Source: Sphingomonas sp. IC081
GTDB lineage: Bacteria > Pseudomonadota > Alphaproteobacteria > Sphingomonadales > Sphingomonadaceae
Reading direction: 5' to 3'
Assembly: GCF_006874585.1 (NCBI RefSeq)
Contig: NZ_CP029761.1
Coordinates: 3,483,001 to 3,547,000, forward strand
DNA: 64,000 nucleotides
Shown: in pieces, positions 43,650 to 48,988 of the stretch
Position numbering within the stretch: position 1 is the first letter of the stretch
How the letters are laid out: every line of letters begins with the position of its first letter
The notes under the pieces: generated by a model
Told to the model about the DNA's origin: nothing
Seen by the model: the letters and a program-made list of their open reading frames with translations, nothing else
The model's database searches: none
Made by a program: the position numbers and the translations under genes

Positions 43650-44765
43650 TCAGTCGAGCCCCAGGGCGCTGCGGATCGCGCGCCAGGAGAGCAGCTTGAA
43701 GTTCTGCGCATAGGGGGCGTTGTCGCCGTCCTGCGCCACCATCAGGCCCTCGGGATAGGCAGGGCCGAAGTCGCCGAGCACGACCTCGATGCCGTCGGTA
43801 TCGCTGGTGCCGCCGATGCTGCCGCCATCGATGCGGAACCGTCCGGCAGGCTTGCCGGTGCCAAGGTCGAACAGGGCATAGGCATTGTCGCCCTGGCTGG
43901 ATGCGACCAGCCATGCCCGCCCGCCGTCTTCGCGGGCAACCGCAAGACCTTCCACGTCGGCGACGAGGCCGTCCGCTGCCCCGACTTTGGCGAAGGCTTC
44001 GGCGACCAGCCTGTCCCCGGCGAGGGGGACCTTCCAGATCCCGACGTCCTCCTCGGCAACAAACAGCACCTTGCCGGCATCGTCGACCACGCAGCCTTCG
44101 GATTGCGTCGCGAACTTCACGAGGCGCAGGTAGTCGGGCACTATCCGGCCCTCGCGCTCGATCAGGCGGCTTTCCGCCACCGAACCGTCCTTGAGCACGA
44201 CATAGGCGCGGGCGAGTTCGCCCGAAGCCAGGGCGCTGCCCATGCAGAAGCCATAGGCCTCGGCGGGAGCGTGACCGGCGGGCAGGAAGGTTTCCGCGCC
44301 CAATGAGGTGAGCTTGCCGCTGGCGCCATCAAGCGCGAACAAGGCGATGCGCGGTTCGGCCCGGTCGGTGCGGTCGCTGGCGCCAACGAGGATCGTCGTT
44401 TTGCCGCCGCGGCGCACTTCTCGCAGGTCCACGTTGTTGAGCGCCCCTGCTGCGGCAAAATCGCGCACCTTGCCGTCGAGCCCGTAGACATAGAGCCCGG
44501 CCTTCTTGTCGGTGCCGAGAACGAGGCTGGCGGCGGGATTCGCGGCATTGCGCCAGATCGCCGGATCGTCGGCGGCATCGACATTGGCGGTGCCGACCGG
44601 GGTGGTTTCACCCGCAGCGGCAACATCGACAGCGGGAAGGCGGATCGCGGGAGCCGTGGCGGTGGTGGCGCAGCCGGCCAGCAGGGCCGAAAGCACGAGG
44701 GCCGGGAGCAATGCTCCCGACCCACATGTCACGACACTGGCGATGTGCGTGAGCGCGGCCTTCAT
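43650..44765 (-). CDS. beta-propeller phytase lipoprotein
   Basis: A 371-residue 3-phytase that releases phosphate from inositol hexakisphosphate. It has a signal peptide and lipobox LLAGC (Cys32), so it is probably outer-membrane anchored. The propeller text ANVDAADDPAIWRNAANPAASLVLGTDKKAGLYVYGLDGK, VDLREVRRGGK, YGFCMG, EGCVVDDAGKVLFVAEEDVGIWKVPL, VADVEGLAVAR and GTSDTDGIEVVLGDFG with its acidic calcium and phosphate ligands is diagnostic. Its ATG overlaps the TonB receptor stop by one base (TGATG), so the two are one operon, probably Pho-controlled. Confidence 0.95.
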   Translation of the reverse strand: MKAALTHIASVVTCGSGALLPALVLSALLAGCATTATAPAIRLPAVDVAAAGETTPVGTANVDAADDPAIWRNAANPAASLVLGTDKKAGLYVYGLDGKVRDFAAAGALNNVDLREVRRGGKTTILVGASDRTDRAEPRIALFALDGASGKLTSLGAETFLPAGHAPAEAYGFCMGSALASGELARAYVVLKDGSVAESRLIEREGRIVPDYLRLVKFATQSEGCVVDDAGKVLFVAEEDVGIWKVPLAGDRLVAEAFAKVGAADGLVADVEGLAVAREDGGRAWLVASSQGDNAYALFDLGTGKPAGRFRIDGGSIGGTSDTDGIEVVLGDFGPAYPEGLMVAQDGDNAPYAQNFKLLSWRAIRSALGLD

Positions 44766-47554
44766 CAGAAGGTCACCCGCGCGCCGAACTTCACGGTCGA
44801 GCCATATTCCTCGTACTGCAGCACGCGCTTGGCGCCGGCGAGGTTCTGGTAGGCGAAGTACTTGGCGTTGTTGACGTTCACCCAGTCCGCGAAGAGGCGG
44901 ATGTTGTCGGTGAGCTTGTACTTGGCCGAAAGATCCAGCTGGAAGTGCTGGTTGACGGTACGGTCGGTGTCGAACGAATCGCCGACCTCGTCGAGGTACT
45001 TGTCGCGGAAGGTACCGGCAGCGCGCAGGCTGATCGGGCCCTTCTCGTACCCCAGCACCGCGTTGAAGGTGTTCTTCGATGCGTTGGGCAGCGAGATGCG
45101 GCGGGCGACCTGCACGCCGTCGTCATCCGAGAACACCGTGCCGCGGGCGTAAGTGTAGGTGTAGTTGAGCTGCGTCAGCAGGCCATCGAAGGGCGAGGGC
45201 AGCATCGTGAAGGCCTGGCTGAAGCTGACTTCCACACCGGCGATCTCGGCGGTGTCGCCGTTCATCGGAATGGTGATCTCCTCGTAGGCGATGCCGTTGT
45301 AGGTGCCGCTTTCCTTGGAGTTCAGCGAGTAGGTGTAGTCCTTGATCGACTTGTAGAAGCCGCCGACCGAGAACGCACCGTTGTTCGCGAAGTAGTATTC
45401 GAACCCGGCGTCGAAGTTCCAGGCCTGGTAGGGCTTGAGTTCGGGGTTGCCGACTTCCAGTTCGAGGTCGTCGTTGATCGTGTTGCGCGGCGCCATCTGC
45501 GACAGCTTGGGACGCACCACGGTCTTGTAACCGGCGAGGCGGGCAACGAGGCTGGGCTGCGGGCTGTAGCGCACCGTCAGGCTGGGCAGCCAGTTGGTGT
45601 AGTTGCGCTTGTAGGTCTGCGGATCGATGGTGAAGGTATCGTCGCCGTTGTCGGTGACGAGGCTGCCGTTGAGTTCGTTGTGGGTGTGCTCCATGCGCAC
45701 GCCGCCGATGACGCGCAGGGTGGCGCTGTCCCAGCGGGCAAGGGCATAGCCGGCCGCGATGTCCTCACGCACCGAATAGTCGCTGATCGCCGAATTGTAG
45801 CCGCTCTCGAAATCGTTGACCACGAACGCGCCCGGGTTGGACAGCAGGTAGGCGGCAGGGCCGCCCTTGCTGGCGACCGGGCCCATGTCGGTCAGGCGGT
45901 AGGTCTGCTTGCCCAGCACGTCGGCCAGCGTGTAGTCGGCATCGTCGGCCAGGTCGTAGTAGGTCATGTTGAAGTCGTAGGACTTCTTGCGCCAGCGGGC
46001 CTTGCCGCCGGCCTGCACGGTGAAGTCGCCATTGTCGCCGGCGAAAGTGCGGGCGAGATCGGCCTTGATCGCCCATTCCTGGTCCTGGCTGTCGGACAGG
46101 GTGGTCAGTTCGGTCTTGTTGAACGCGTACTCCGAAGCGTCGTTGAACGTATCGGCGCCTTCGGTGACCGAGTAGGTCGGGTAGTAGGTGTTCGAGTAGT
46201 CCATATCGACCACGGTGCCGCTCTTGAAGCGGGCGCGGAAACGGGTCGGATCGACCGAGAAGGTCTCCTTCTCGGTGGACTTGGCGTAGCTCGCCATCCA
46301 GTTGAACTTCCACACGCCGGTGTCGGTGTCGCTGCCGATCGAGACCGAGCGGATGCGCTGGCGTTCGAAGCGATCCTTGAGGTCGCGCTGGACGGTGATG
46401 CGCTCGTCCGAACCATCGAAAGTGGCGCTGCTGTCGGTGCTGGCGCTGGGGCTATCGAAATCGCCGAAGTCCAGCGTGGTGCGGCGGCGGTACTCGTGGT
46501 CGTCGAACTGTGCCCAGTTGCCGCGGATATAGGCCTTGGTCGTGTCCGACACCCGCCAGTCGGCCGAGAGCGCCGCGTTGATGCGGGTGCGCTCGACGTC
46601 ATAGTCACGGTATTCCACCGATTCGGCCCAGGCGTTGCCGTTGTCGTCGACGTTCCAGCCGCCGGTCTCGACGTTGTCGGTCTCGAACTTGCGCTTGTAG
46701 TAGCTGACCGAGCCGGCGATGCCGAAATCGTCGCCCAGCTTCTGTGTGAAGTCGAAGGCGCCCTTGGGGGTGACCTTGCCCGAATAGTCGTTCCAGCTGC
46801 CCTCGGCGCTCAGCGAGTAGCGGTTCTTTTTCGAATCGAAGGCGCTGGTGGTGTTCACCTCGATCGAGGCGCCGATGAAGTCGCCGTCCATGTCGGGGGT
46901 GAAGCTCTTTTTCACTTCGATCGACTGGATGGTGTCCGACGAGATCACGTCGAGCGCGACCGAGCGGACGTCCGATTCGGGCGCGGGCAGGCGCACGCCG
47001 TTGACCGAGGTGCCGTTGAGTTCGGGGTCGAGGCCGCGCACCGAAACGTAGCGGCCTTCACCCTGGTCGTTGAGGATGTTGACGCCGGGCAGGCGGCGCA
47101 GCGATTCGGCGACGTTCTGGTCAGGGAACTGGCCGACCGCGTCGCGGGTGAGGACCGAGACGACACCGTCGGCGGCCTTCTGGCGCGACAGGGCGCTGGT
47201 CATGTTGGCGGTGAGGCCGGTGACCAGAATGTCGCCGCCGCCGATCGCGGCGAGGTCGAAGTTGCCGTCCACGCGGCCGGTGGCGGGCACGGTGACCGAC
47301 CGGGTCGTCACTTCCGCGCCGACGTAGCGGGCTTCCAGGGTGTAGGTGCCGGCGGGAACGTCGCCAAAGATGTACTGGCCCGAACGGTCGGTCTCGACGC
47401 TGCGGTCGAGCTCGACGATGCGCACGCTGGCCGACTGCAGGGCACGGACACCGGTGGCGTCATGAACGCTACCGGCAACTTCGCCTGCGTGAGCGATCGT
47501 GGCGAAGGAGGCCGAGGCGAGCAGCCCCGCGAGGAGGCGCATGGAGGACGTCAT
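44765..47554 (-). CDS. TonB-dependent receptor with N-terminal carboxypeptidase-like domain, phytase-coupled
   Basis: A 929-residue outer-membrane transporter. Signal peptide 1-23 (ends TIAHA). A CarboxypepD-regulatory-like beta-sandwich (about 24-105) is followed by the TonB box region DILVTG, the plug (QFPDQNVAESLRRLPGVNI, GRYVSVRGLDPELNGTSVNGVRL) and a beta-barrel ending TVKFGARVTF. The terminal phenylalanine is the outer-membrane signal. It is translationally coupled to a phytase, so phytate or a lower inositol phosphate, or a metal complex of it, is the probable substrate (inference). An upstream Pho-like box supports this. Confidence 0.94.
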   Translation of the reverse strand: MTSSMRLLAGLLASASFATIAHAGEVAGSVHDATGVRALQSASVRIVELDRSVETDRSGQYIFGDVPAGTYTLEARYVGAEVTTRSVTVPATGRVDGNFDLAAIGGGDILVTGLTANMTSALSRQKAADGVVSVLTRDAVGQFPDQNVAESLRRLPGVNILNDQGEGRYVSVRGLDPELNGTSVNGVRLPAPESDVRSVALDVISSDTIQSIEVKKSFTPDMDGDFIGASIEVNTTSAFDSKKNRYSLSAEGSWNDYSGKVTPKGAFDFTQKLGDDFGIAGSVSYYKRKFETDNVETGGWNVDDNGNAWAESVEYRDYDVERTRINAALSADWRVSDTTKAYIRGNWAQFDDHEYRRRTTLDFGDFDSPSASTDSSATFDGSDERITVQRDLKDRFERQRIRSVSIGSDTDTGVWKFNWMASYAKSTEKETFSVDPTRFRARFKSGTVVDMDYSNTYYPTYSVTEGADTFNDASEYAFNKTELTTLSDSQDQEWAIKADLARTFAGDNGDFTVQAGGKARWRKKSYDFNMTYYDLADDADYTLADVLGKQTYRLTDMGPVASKGGPAAYLLSNPGAFVVNDFESGYNSAISDYSVREDIAAGYALARWDSATLRVIGGVRMEHTHNELNGSLVTDNGDDTFTIDPQTYKRNYTNWLPSLTVRYSPQPSLVARLAGYKTVVRPKLSQMAPRNTINDDLELEVGNPELKPYQAWNFDAGFEYYFANNGAFSVGGFYKSIKDYTYSLNSKESGTYNGIAYEEITIPMNGDTAEIAGVEVSFSQAFTMLPSPFDGLLTQLNYTYTYARGTVFSDDDGVQVARRISLPNASKNTFNAVLGYEKGPISLRAAGTFRDKYLDEVGDSFDTDRTVNQHFQLDLSAKYKLTDNIRLFADWVNVNNAKYFAYQNLAGAKRVLQYEEYGSTVKFGARVTF

Positions 47555-47610
47555 TTTGAGGCAAACCCCTGTTGCTTCGAAGAAGTTGGGGCGGCCTCTA
47601 AGTCCGTTCG

Positions 47611-47650
47611 ATGACAGTTTTGTGCTGATGGAATGGCAGTTTTATGACCC
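47611..47650 (-). promoter_or_regulatory. putative PhoB box array upstream of TonB receptor-phytase operon
   Basis: On the minus strand, three repeats are spaced in multiples of 11 bp: GGGTCAT, AAAA, CTGCCAT, then an intermediate weak unit, AAAA, CTGTCAT. The last is a perfect match to the PhoB half-site CTGTCAT, the middle 6 of 7 and the first 5 of 7. The array ends 57 nt before the receptor ATG. PhoB regulation is inferred from the motif and the phosphate-scavenging genes. Confidence 0.65.
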
Positions 47651-47743: not shown

Positions 47744-47818
47744 TGGTGCTGCTGGGGAGGATTGAACTCCCGACCTCGTCATTACCAATGACGCGCTCTA
47801 CCACTGAGCTACAGCAGC
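47744..47818 (-). tRNA. tRNA-Thr (anticodon GGT)
   Basis: A complete cloverleaf on the minus strand: acceptor GCTGCTG/CAGCAGC, D arm GCTC/GAGC, anticodon stem CGTCA/TGACG with loop TTGGTAA, T arm GGGAG-TTCAATC-CTCCC, and an encoded CCA end. The anticodon GGT reads threonine codons ACC and ACT. A consensus -35 box precedes it. Confidence 0.97.
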
Positions 47819-48301: not shown

Positions 48302-48988
48302 TTGCCTCGCCTGATCCTCGTCCGCCACGGCCAGAGCCAATGGAACCTTGAAAACCGCTTCACCGGCTGGTGGGATGTCGACCTGACCCCGCTGGGCGAG
48401 GATGAAGCCCGCGCCGCCGGCGCGCTGCTCAAGGAAAAGGGCATTGCCCCCACCGTTGCTTTCACCTCGCTGCAGACCCGGGCGATCCGCACCCTGCACC
48501 TGGCGCTGGAAGCGGCCGGGCTGCTGTGGATTCCCGAGACCAAGGACTGGCGCCTCAACGAGCGTCACTATGGCGGCCTTACCGGCCTCAACAAGGCGGA
48601 GACCGCTGCCAAGCACGGCGAGGAGCAGGTGAAGATCTGGCGCCGCAGCTTCGACACGCCGCCGCCGGTGCTGGAAAAGGGCAGCGAGTTCGATCTCTCG
48701 ACCGACGCACGCTACGCCGGGATCGACGTGCCGCAGACCGAAAGCCTCAAGGACACCATCGCACGCGTCCTGCCGTATTACGAAGGCTCGATCGTGCCGC
48801 ACCTCAAGGCCGGTGCCGACGTGCTGGTCTCGGCCCACGGAAATTCGCTGCGCGCGCTGGTGAAGCATCTCTCCAACATCTCGGACGACGAGATCACCGG
48901 TCTGGAAATCCCGACCGGCCAGCCGATCGTCTACGAGCTGTCGGACGATCTCGCGGTTCTCGACCGCTATTATCTCTCGGAGCGTTGA
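48302..48988 (+). CDS. gpmA: 2,3-bisphosphoglycerate-dependent phosphoglycerate mutase
   Basis: A glycolytic mutase of 228 residues. The phosphohistidine His9 lies in [43 protein letters not shown], and [18 protein letters not shown] with the second catalytic histidine, are diagnostic. TTG 48302 is the only start that gives the usual short N terminus before RHG. purE begins one base after the stop. Confidence 0.96.

Follow-up and report, generated by a model that had tools for sequence, protein, structure and literature searches.

TonB receptors near phytases were reportedly noted by Lim in 2007 (ISME J). Phytic acid was then proposed, in 2012, as the substrate of a phytase-adjacent TonB-dependent receptor (TBDT) of Citromicrobium bathyomarinum JL354 (PMC3400609). 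In Flavobacterium johnsoniae, a study of 2020 describes the TBDT Fjoh_1368 and the phytase Fjoh_1367 as induced by phosphate depletion, and argues for uptake of organic phosphorus (PMC8115612). In Caulobacter crescentus, the PhoB regulon includes several TonB-dependent receptors, a phytase and the type II secretion system (T2SS); the passages on this regulon do not call the receptor and the phytase a pair (PMC11208175). Phytase is not mentioned by Blanvillain 2007 (PMC1790865). In the literature searched, we found neither a demonstration that a TBDT transports phytate nor a report of a TBDT paired with a purple acid phosphatase (PAP).

Here we analyse a window of 64,000 nucleotides from Sphingomonas sp. 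IC081, in which a receptor gene preceded by Pho boxes adjoins a phytase gene. The best explanation, to which we give a probability of roughly 60%, is a Pho-regulon operon for phytate scavenging, with a PhoB switch, import of inositol phosphate by the receptor, and cleavage by the phytase. The original prediction had presented such import as a new idea, but the Citromicrobium and Flavobacterium reports precede it (PMC3400609, PMC8115612). In the C. bathyomarinum compared here (IOP_28, L244; not strain JL354), the receptor is orthologous, with 54% identity, and a phytase lies directly downstream; the passages on the JL354 receptor mention neither Pho boxes nor coupling, both of which are noted below. 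In two Caulobacter MAGs (L239 and L241), a phytase lies about 300 bp downstream of an ortholog of the receptor. F. johnsoniae, unlike the source genome, belongs to the Bacteroidetes; its TBDT combines pf07715 and pf13715, and the neighbouring pf02333 phytase is predicted to reside at the outer membrane.

The receptor and the adjoining phytase

The receptor (44765..47554, minus strand; 929 aa) was assigned with Pfam and TIGR profiles to the TIGR01782 (TonB-Xanth-Caul) subfamily, on the basis of a plug, a barrel and a score of 565 bits for a cut-off of 310. All of its features lie on the minus strand. A likely signal peptide, read by eye from the translation, covers residues 1-23 (47486..47554; AHA/G). 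The expected N-terminal carboxypeptidase-like domain was recovered at residues 26-101 (47252..47479; PF13620, 47.3 bits; PF13715, 40.2 bits), and since this stretch aligns in 10/10 orthologs, it is a trait of the receptor lineage. It is followed by ILVTG (residues 109-113, 47216..47230), by the plug domain (residues 126-218, 46901..47179; PF07715, 57.4 bits) and by a beta-barrel match (residues 451-892, 44879..46204; PF00593, 117.3 bits). From its resemblance to known examples, we take ILVTG to be a likely TonB box: I109, L110, V111 and G113 are invariant across a 10-row ortholog alignment, and V111 and G113 only in a 28-row receptor alignment. This conserved stretch is the one feature bearing on the predicted TonB-driven transport of a ligand.

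The AlphaFold model of the receptor (mean pLDDT 84.5) matches solved TBDTs, scoring about equally well against receptors for heme, siderophores, B12, copper and PQQ, so that the ligand cannot be deduced from the structure. When solved structures were searched by sequence, the plug region of Cir was the only match, and no clue to the ligand emerged from inspection of the conserved basic residues. As receptors for heme and siderophores make up most of the best structural matches, and as phytate chelates metals, the receptor might instead import a metal, iron or other, bound to or freed from phytate, the phytase serving to destroy the chelator. However, the structural ranking mirrors which TBDTs have been solved, the promoter has a Pho box, and a PAP takes the place of the phytase in some relatives; we therefore consider metal uptake improbable.

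The downstream gene (43650..44765, minus strand) encodes a protein of 371 aa matching PF02333 over residues 19-369 (225 bits, cut-off 21), the single match to this family in the whole genome. It is homologous to the Bacillus phytase PDB 3amr over residues 48-369 (E=6e-56), and thus belongs to the same enzyme family as the Bacillus beta-propeller phytases (PDB 3amr, 1poo and 1cvm). The motif DAADDPAIW (residues 63-71, 44553..44579, minus strand) aligns letter for letter with 3amr, and NNVDLR (residues 110-115, 44421..44438, minus strand) corresponds to NNVDIR in that structure; they contain D-A-x-D-D-P-A-x-W and N-N-x-D-x-R, the signature motifs of beta-propeller phytases. By family, the protein is therefore a beta-propeller phytase, predicted to hydrolyse phytate. 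The Bacillus enzyme is a secreted enzyme of a Gram-positive bacterium; unlike it, the present phytase is probably a lipoprotein, as had been proposed, in view of a signal and of a lipobox, LAGC (residues 29-32, 44670..44681, minus strand), both read by eye from the translation and suggesting a lipid anchor.

The receptor stop overlaps the phytase start (TGATG), with one base common to both reading frames, which bears out a receptor-phytase operon. The interval first assigned to it contains the receptor, but the phytase lies outside save for the shared base. A Pfam scan of chosen neighbouring ORFs assigned them to MurA, to a histidine phosphatase or to no family; it did not reveal, beside the TBDT, a SusD-like lipoprotein such as defines SusCD or PusCD systems.

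Pho boxes upstream of the receptor

A tandem Pho-box array occupies 47611..47650 on the minus strand. It consists of four 7-bp half-sites whose starts are 11 bp apart: GGGTCAT (47650-47644, score 4.0) and an AAAA spacer, CTGCCAT (47639-47633, score 6.4) and a TCCA spacer, TCAGCAC (47628-47622) and another AAAA, then CTGTCAT (47617-47611, score 11.0). The third half-site is rated poor because of its score of -3.5. The repeats in 11-bp phase announced by the original prediction are thus real, the four 7-mers being exactly in register.

The array is far above chance. Its score of 17.9 is the top four-half-site score in the window, the runners-up (8.1 and 8.0) being shifted or reverse readings of the array itself and the best independent place reaching 7.9 (24485, minus strand); when the upstream region was shuffled 5000 times with its dinucleotides preserved, 17.9 was never attained. 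The best single box of the array scores 14.4 bits (shuffle p = 0.015). Matches to the 18-mer consensus with at most three mismatches are not rare (8 in the window, 9.84 expected), so that one box alone would be unconvincing. A chance origin of the boxes was ruled out by the four-half-site array together with its conservation in relatives.

The matrix used for these scores was trained without a seed on 30 pstS-like upstream regions of relatives and yielded TGTCATGAAACTGTCATA; it superseded an earlier consensus scan of relatives, which had given mixed scores. As it was trained on pstS-like promoters, the motif is not fitted to the receptor operon. Since the curated cut-off of TIGR02136 was reached in 0/119 genomes, the training genes are pstS-like by a weaker score only; several training rows have no good box, and one (L134) has a shortened flank, cut at the wrong place.

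Among receptor orthologs, a site with p<=0.05 lies upstream in 59/80, against 12/199 control promoters of the same loci, and is missed in 21/80. On the coding strand at -140..-60, a site is present for 62/80 orthologs and 33/199 controls. Such sites (p<=0.05) precede 35 of the 43 same-strand receptor-phytase loci, the window counted in, and are lacking in the other 8; divergent loci have one in 10/15 cases and miss it in 5/15. The source genome encodes PhoB (TIGR02154, 326 bits, cut-off 296) and has a Pho box of 21.2 bits before its own pstS-like gene. The operon's single box, at 14.4 bits, is weaker than the latter, which counts against the best explanation, as do the poor third half-site and the promoters of relatives in which a site is missed. 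Taken together, the array, its conservation in relatives, PhoB above cut-off and the boxed pstS-like gene make the regulatory reading of the operon well supported at the sequence level; induction as such we infer.

Conservation of the pair and exchange of the enzyme

A receptor ortholog is present in 59/249 genomes of the family. Phytase was found in 57 of these 59 and in 52/190 of the others (p=4.5e-23, in a test that ignores kinship), and lies directly downstream of the receptor ortholog in 48/59. Of 80 named orthologs, 67 have a phytase and/or a PAP downstream on the same strand: phytase alone in 54 cases, PAP alone in 5, and both in 8. Seven of the 80 have neither enzyme in the DNA examined around them, which counts against the best explanation. 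On the receptor tree, built by a quick method with SH-aLRT support only, the partner type changed at least 10 times, counting 68 rows and leaving out 13 'other' rows.

PAPs are often broad phosphomonoesterases, and their occurrence at 13 of the 80 orthologs, alone or with phytase, could mean that the receptor imports a wider range of phosphomonoesters, phytate being one among them. This seems very unlikely, as phytase alone is the partner in 54/80 orthologs and as some plant PAPs are, by published accounts, themselves phytases.

A soluble PAP belongs to the operon in 9/59 receptor genomes; Blastomonas aquatica (L249) is a relative with this variant. GspE, the T2SS ATPase, was found in all nine and in 10/50 of the other receptor genomes; by genus, the figures are 6/6 and 7/29. 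None of 14 operon PAPs has a lipobox recognised by regular expression. The PAP variant of the operon and its link to type II secretion are new here, and the association suggests that in this variant cleavage occurs outside.

Import or surface cleavage

The question arises as to on which side of the outer membrane phytate is cleaved in the source genome. A phytase anchored outside could strip phytate at the surface, the receptor capturing and importing only the products (lower inositol phosphates) or holding the substrate near the enzyme, and phosphate entering via porins and Pst. The PAPs devoid of lipobox and associated with GspE speak for such a scheme, as does the Caulobacter lipoprotein ElpS, a surface-exposed lipoprotein of an alphaproteobacterium for which, according to the passages concerned, T2SS acts in release and not in reaching the outer membrane (PMC2996285). 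By this precedent, a phytase that is a lipoprotein could be exposed on the outside even in the absence of T2SS, which weakens that absence as proof of a periplasmic phytase. However, GspE was not found in the source genome (best match 50 bits, compared with 331-675 bits in 119 positive relatives), which leaves no apparent T2SS path to the cell surface. Among the 50 receptor genomes that have no PAP in the operon, GspE was not found in 40, the source genome being one of them. Moreover, a TonB receptor would be superfluous if phytate were only cleaved at the surface, and yet the receptor and phytase genes are tightly linked. We regard surface cleavage as rather unlikely, and import is favoured, on genomic grounds, for the source genome.

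Under the favoured import reading, PhoB~P would bind 47611-47650 when phosphate is scarce and activate a single mRNA for receptor and phytase, whose translation would be coupled by the overlapping stop and start. The TonB-driven receptor would let an inositol phosphate cross the outer membrane, be it intact phytate or a derivative that has lost some of its phosphates, and probably together with metal. Phosphate would then be freed by the lipid-anchored phytase, which in the source genome most likely faces the periplasm, and would enter the cell via PstSCAB.

A large share of the organic phosphorus in soils is phytic acid, 60-80% by one account (PMC9414882), and access of Gram-negative bacteria to phytate across the outer membrane is unsettled as far as the literature searched shows. 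With a conserved Pho-boxed receptor-enzyme pair, deleting two genes would suffice to test import against surface cleavage, and the exchange between phytase and PAP, tied to type II secretion, offers natural variants for comparison. We tentatively propose that the receptors form one lineage of true inositol phosphate importers, served by two unrelated phosphatases matched to the export machinery: a lipid-anchored phytase where T2SS is lacking, as here, and a soluble PAP, alone or added, where it is present. If this is true, the operon shows the cell's choice, with the same receptor, between digesting phytate inside the envelope and digesting it outside.

The receptor-phytase operon and its Pho-box array

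The TonB-dependent receptor (TBDR) gene (44765-47554, minus strand, 929 aa) is followed by that of a beta-propeller phytase (43650-44765, minus strand, 371 aa), and in the sequence TGATG one base is common to the receptor stop and the phytase start. The receptor has a signal-like N-terminus, read by eye, then CarboxypepD_reg (residues 26-101), plug and barrel domains, and falls in subfamily TIGR01782 (565 bits, cut-off 310); Novosphingobium is the source of its closest relatives among the matches listed (75-77%), and the window probably derives from this genus or a neighbouring one. The phytase, sole PF02333 match in the genome, carries a lipobox, LAGC (also read by eye), and its residues 48-369 align with the Bacillus phytase 3amr (E=6e-56). 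The overlapping operon, the lipoprotein signal of the phytase and the carboxypeptidase-like receptor domain of the original prediction are supported. Upstream lie tRNA-Thr (47744-47818, minus strand) and, on its far side and on the opposite strand, a histidine phosphatase branch 1 gene (48302-48988, plus strand; PF00300, 118.7 bits).

Four 7-mers, starting 11 bp apart at 47650, 47639, 47628 and 47617, form a 40-bp array on the minus strand (47611-47650), with 56 bases between its end and the receptor start codon. With up to three mismatches allowed, the plain consensus is no rarity in the window (8 sites for 9.84 expected). A matrix was therefore learned, without a seed, from the regions upstream of 30 pstS-like genes in genomes of the family, each of these genes being a match under the curated cut-off of TIGR02136. 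Genome-wide, the consensus with up to two mismatches gives 107 sites and the reversed pattern 33; the window site, with a single mismatch, is among 10 such genome sites listed. The learned motif is TGTCATGAAACTGTCATA, and at a matrix width of 29 bp a third half-site emerged. The best single box of the window reaches 14.4 bits (p=0.015). The array, one of whose four half-sites is poor (-3.5), scores 17.9; no independent position in the 64-kb window exceeds 7.9, and when the upstream region was shuffled 5000 times, none of the shuffles came up to the score of the array.

G000, the genome that holds the window, has a PhoB gene over the cut-off at C1:114726. It lies some 4 kb downstream from the pstS-like gene at C1:109854; the Pho box of the latter scores 21.2 bits and begins 66 bp before the gene's start. 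Of 12 Pho-box-like sites scored in this genome, the strongest, with 22.9 bits, belongs to locus L158 (G000:C1:622919-627574). Here a likely lipoprotein of 533 aa with no Pfam match is encoded ahead of an ORF of 896 aa at the position of a TBDR match, a gene arrangement similar to that of Caulobacter elpS/cc0171. The genome has a second receptor-phosphatase pair (L160, G000:C2:629765-634249): a TBDR of 1071 aa, which has an STN domain, then directly a purple acid phosphatase (PAP; 42% to the operon PAP of relatives). Upstream of this pair there is a Pho-box-like site of 14.2 bits, and the preceding gene looks FecR-like by eye. Finally, the gene of an OmpR-type response regulator (L169, G000:C2:962442-963266) is preceded, at a distance of about 160 bp, by a Pho-box-like site of 21.7 bits; the PhoB family model does not accept this regulator (144 bits, cut-off 296).

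Conservation in relatives

Phytase is present in 109 of 249 family genomes, from which 60 phytase loci were hand-picked, hence non-randomly. The fetched DNA of 57 contains a match to the window receptor (E<=1e-5), and that of L067, L084 and L104 none at this threshold. The match is close (>600 bits) in 30 of the 57; most of the rest are distant, at about 23-36% identity, and lie either upstream in the same orientation or divergently. Distant TBDRs are frequent neighbours of phytases that lack the close receptor (L062-L121), which points to more than one origin of the pairing.

With the window included, a site at p<=0.05 was found in 35 of 43 same-strand and 10 of 15 divergent receptor-phytase loci, and the best site was on the coding strand in 37 of the 43. 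A partly overlapping set (for example L214/G056 and L249/G157) comprises the best 80 of at least 586 confirmed stretches with receptor orthologs from named records. Here 59 have such a site upstream, against 12 of 199 control promoters, taken from other ORFs of the ortholog loci, and in 62 the highest-scoring site falls on the coding strand between -140 and -60, against 33 controls. A Pho-box site before the receptor is conserved in relatives, and Pho control of a phytate-related operon is very probable.

A receptor ortholog (E<=1e-150) occurs in 59 of the 249 genomes, 57 of which have phytase, against 52 of the 190 others (p=4.5e-23, no phylogenetic correction). The phytase lies directly downstream (<150 bp) in 48, beyond a gap of 662-1979 bp in eight and on another contig in one; two lack it. 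At the level of sequence, regulation and receptor-phytase pairing are both strongly supported. In five family genomes (L002-L006), the phytase lies in a 668-709 aa open frame with two successive PF02333 matches.

Phytase, purple acid phosphatase and secretion

Where a receptor genome lacks phytase, as G157 and G206 do, the gene that follows the receptor encodes a PAP (PF16656 and PF00149). Judged by coordinates, with a family scan on L164 only, seven of the eight gaps contain a PAP homolog; that of G017 contains none. Of the best 80 named orthologs, 54 have phytase as their downstream partner on the same strand, 8 have both PAP and phytase, 5 have PAP alone and 13 fall into a class of other partners. 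This last class includes three divergent phytases (L189, L240, L242), a PAP just upstream (L236), two phytase matches about 5 kb upstream of the receptor start, at the locus edge (L207, L227), and seven loci with neither enzyme in the fetched DNA (L202, L214, L234, L235, L238, L243, L246); L243 and L246 are from Steroidobacter and Peristeroidobacter. The receptor tree requires at least 10 changes of partner type.

By regular expression, 58 of 63 phytases (matches >100 bits on the receptor's strand in the 80 named-ortholog loci, leaving out L245 and the three divergent phytases) have a lipobox. The misses are a near-lipobox (L174), two seemingly wrong starts (L175, L185) and two partial sequences (L207, L227). 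In the phytase-locus set 50 of 61 passed, the misses including the window phytase, whose lipobox is evident to the eye; among PAPs none of 14 passed. At E<=1e-40, 119 of 249 genomes have GspE, the type II secretion system (T2SS) ATPase. It is present in 9 of 9 receptor genomes with an operon PAP against 10 of 50 other receptor genomes (p=7e-6; by genus, 6/6 against 7/29, p=0.001), and in 15 of 17 genomes with a close PAP anywhere against 104 of 232 without (p=6e-4). It was not found in G000 at this threshold (best match 50 bits), whose two secretin matches, 132 and 114 bits, are below the cut-off of 351. Soluble PAP thus accompanies a machinery capable of exporting it, and anchored phytase mostly occurs without that machinery. 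These patterns favour digestion outside the cell in the PAP variant and in the envelope in the window genome. ElpS of Caulobacter speaks against a periplasmic phytase: it is a surface lipoprotein, and the T2SS has a part in its release but not in its arrival at the outer membrane (excerpts of PMC2996285). Our literature search, which covered few subscription journals, found no report of phytase/PAP exchange behind one receptor or of its T2SS link.

Proposed mechanism and known systems

Under low phosphate, PhoB~P would occupy the two tandem boxes, and one coupled transcript would carry receptor and phytase; the receptor, driven by TonB, would take up an inositol phosphate, which the lipid-anchored phytase would dephosphorylate, the Pi passing to PstSCAB. 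We give this whole chain, import included, a probability of about 0.6; the receptor's ligand, the direction of transport and the membrane side of cleavage are what we infer. Within the same coverage of journals, no paper was found that directly proves that a TBDR transports phytate.

That a receptor of this kind might import an inositol phosphate, which the original prediction presented as new, had already been proposed: in excerpts of PMC3400609, a TBDR of Citromicrobium bathyomarinum JL354 adjoins a phytase, with phytic acid as proposed substrate. Another strain of this species (L244) has an orthologous receptor and the gene order of the window. Phosphate depletion induces both the TBDR Fjoh_1368 and the phytase Fjoh_1367, for which organic P uptake is argued (excerpts of PMC8115612), and Caulobacter PhoB governs TonB receptors and a phytase (excerpts of PMC11208175). 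Given these earlier reports, the window operon adds to an already known type.
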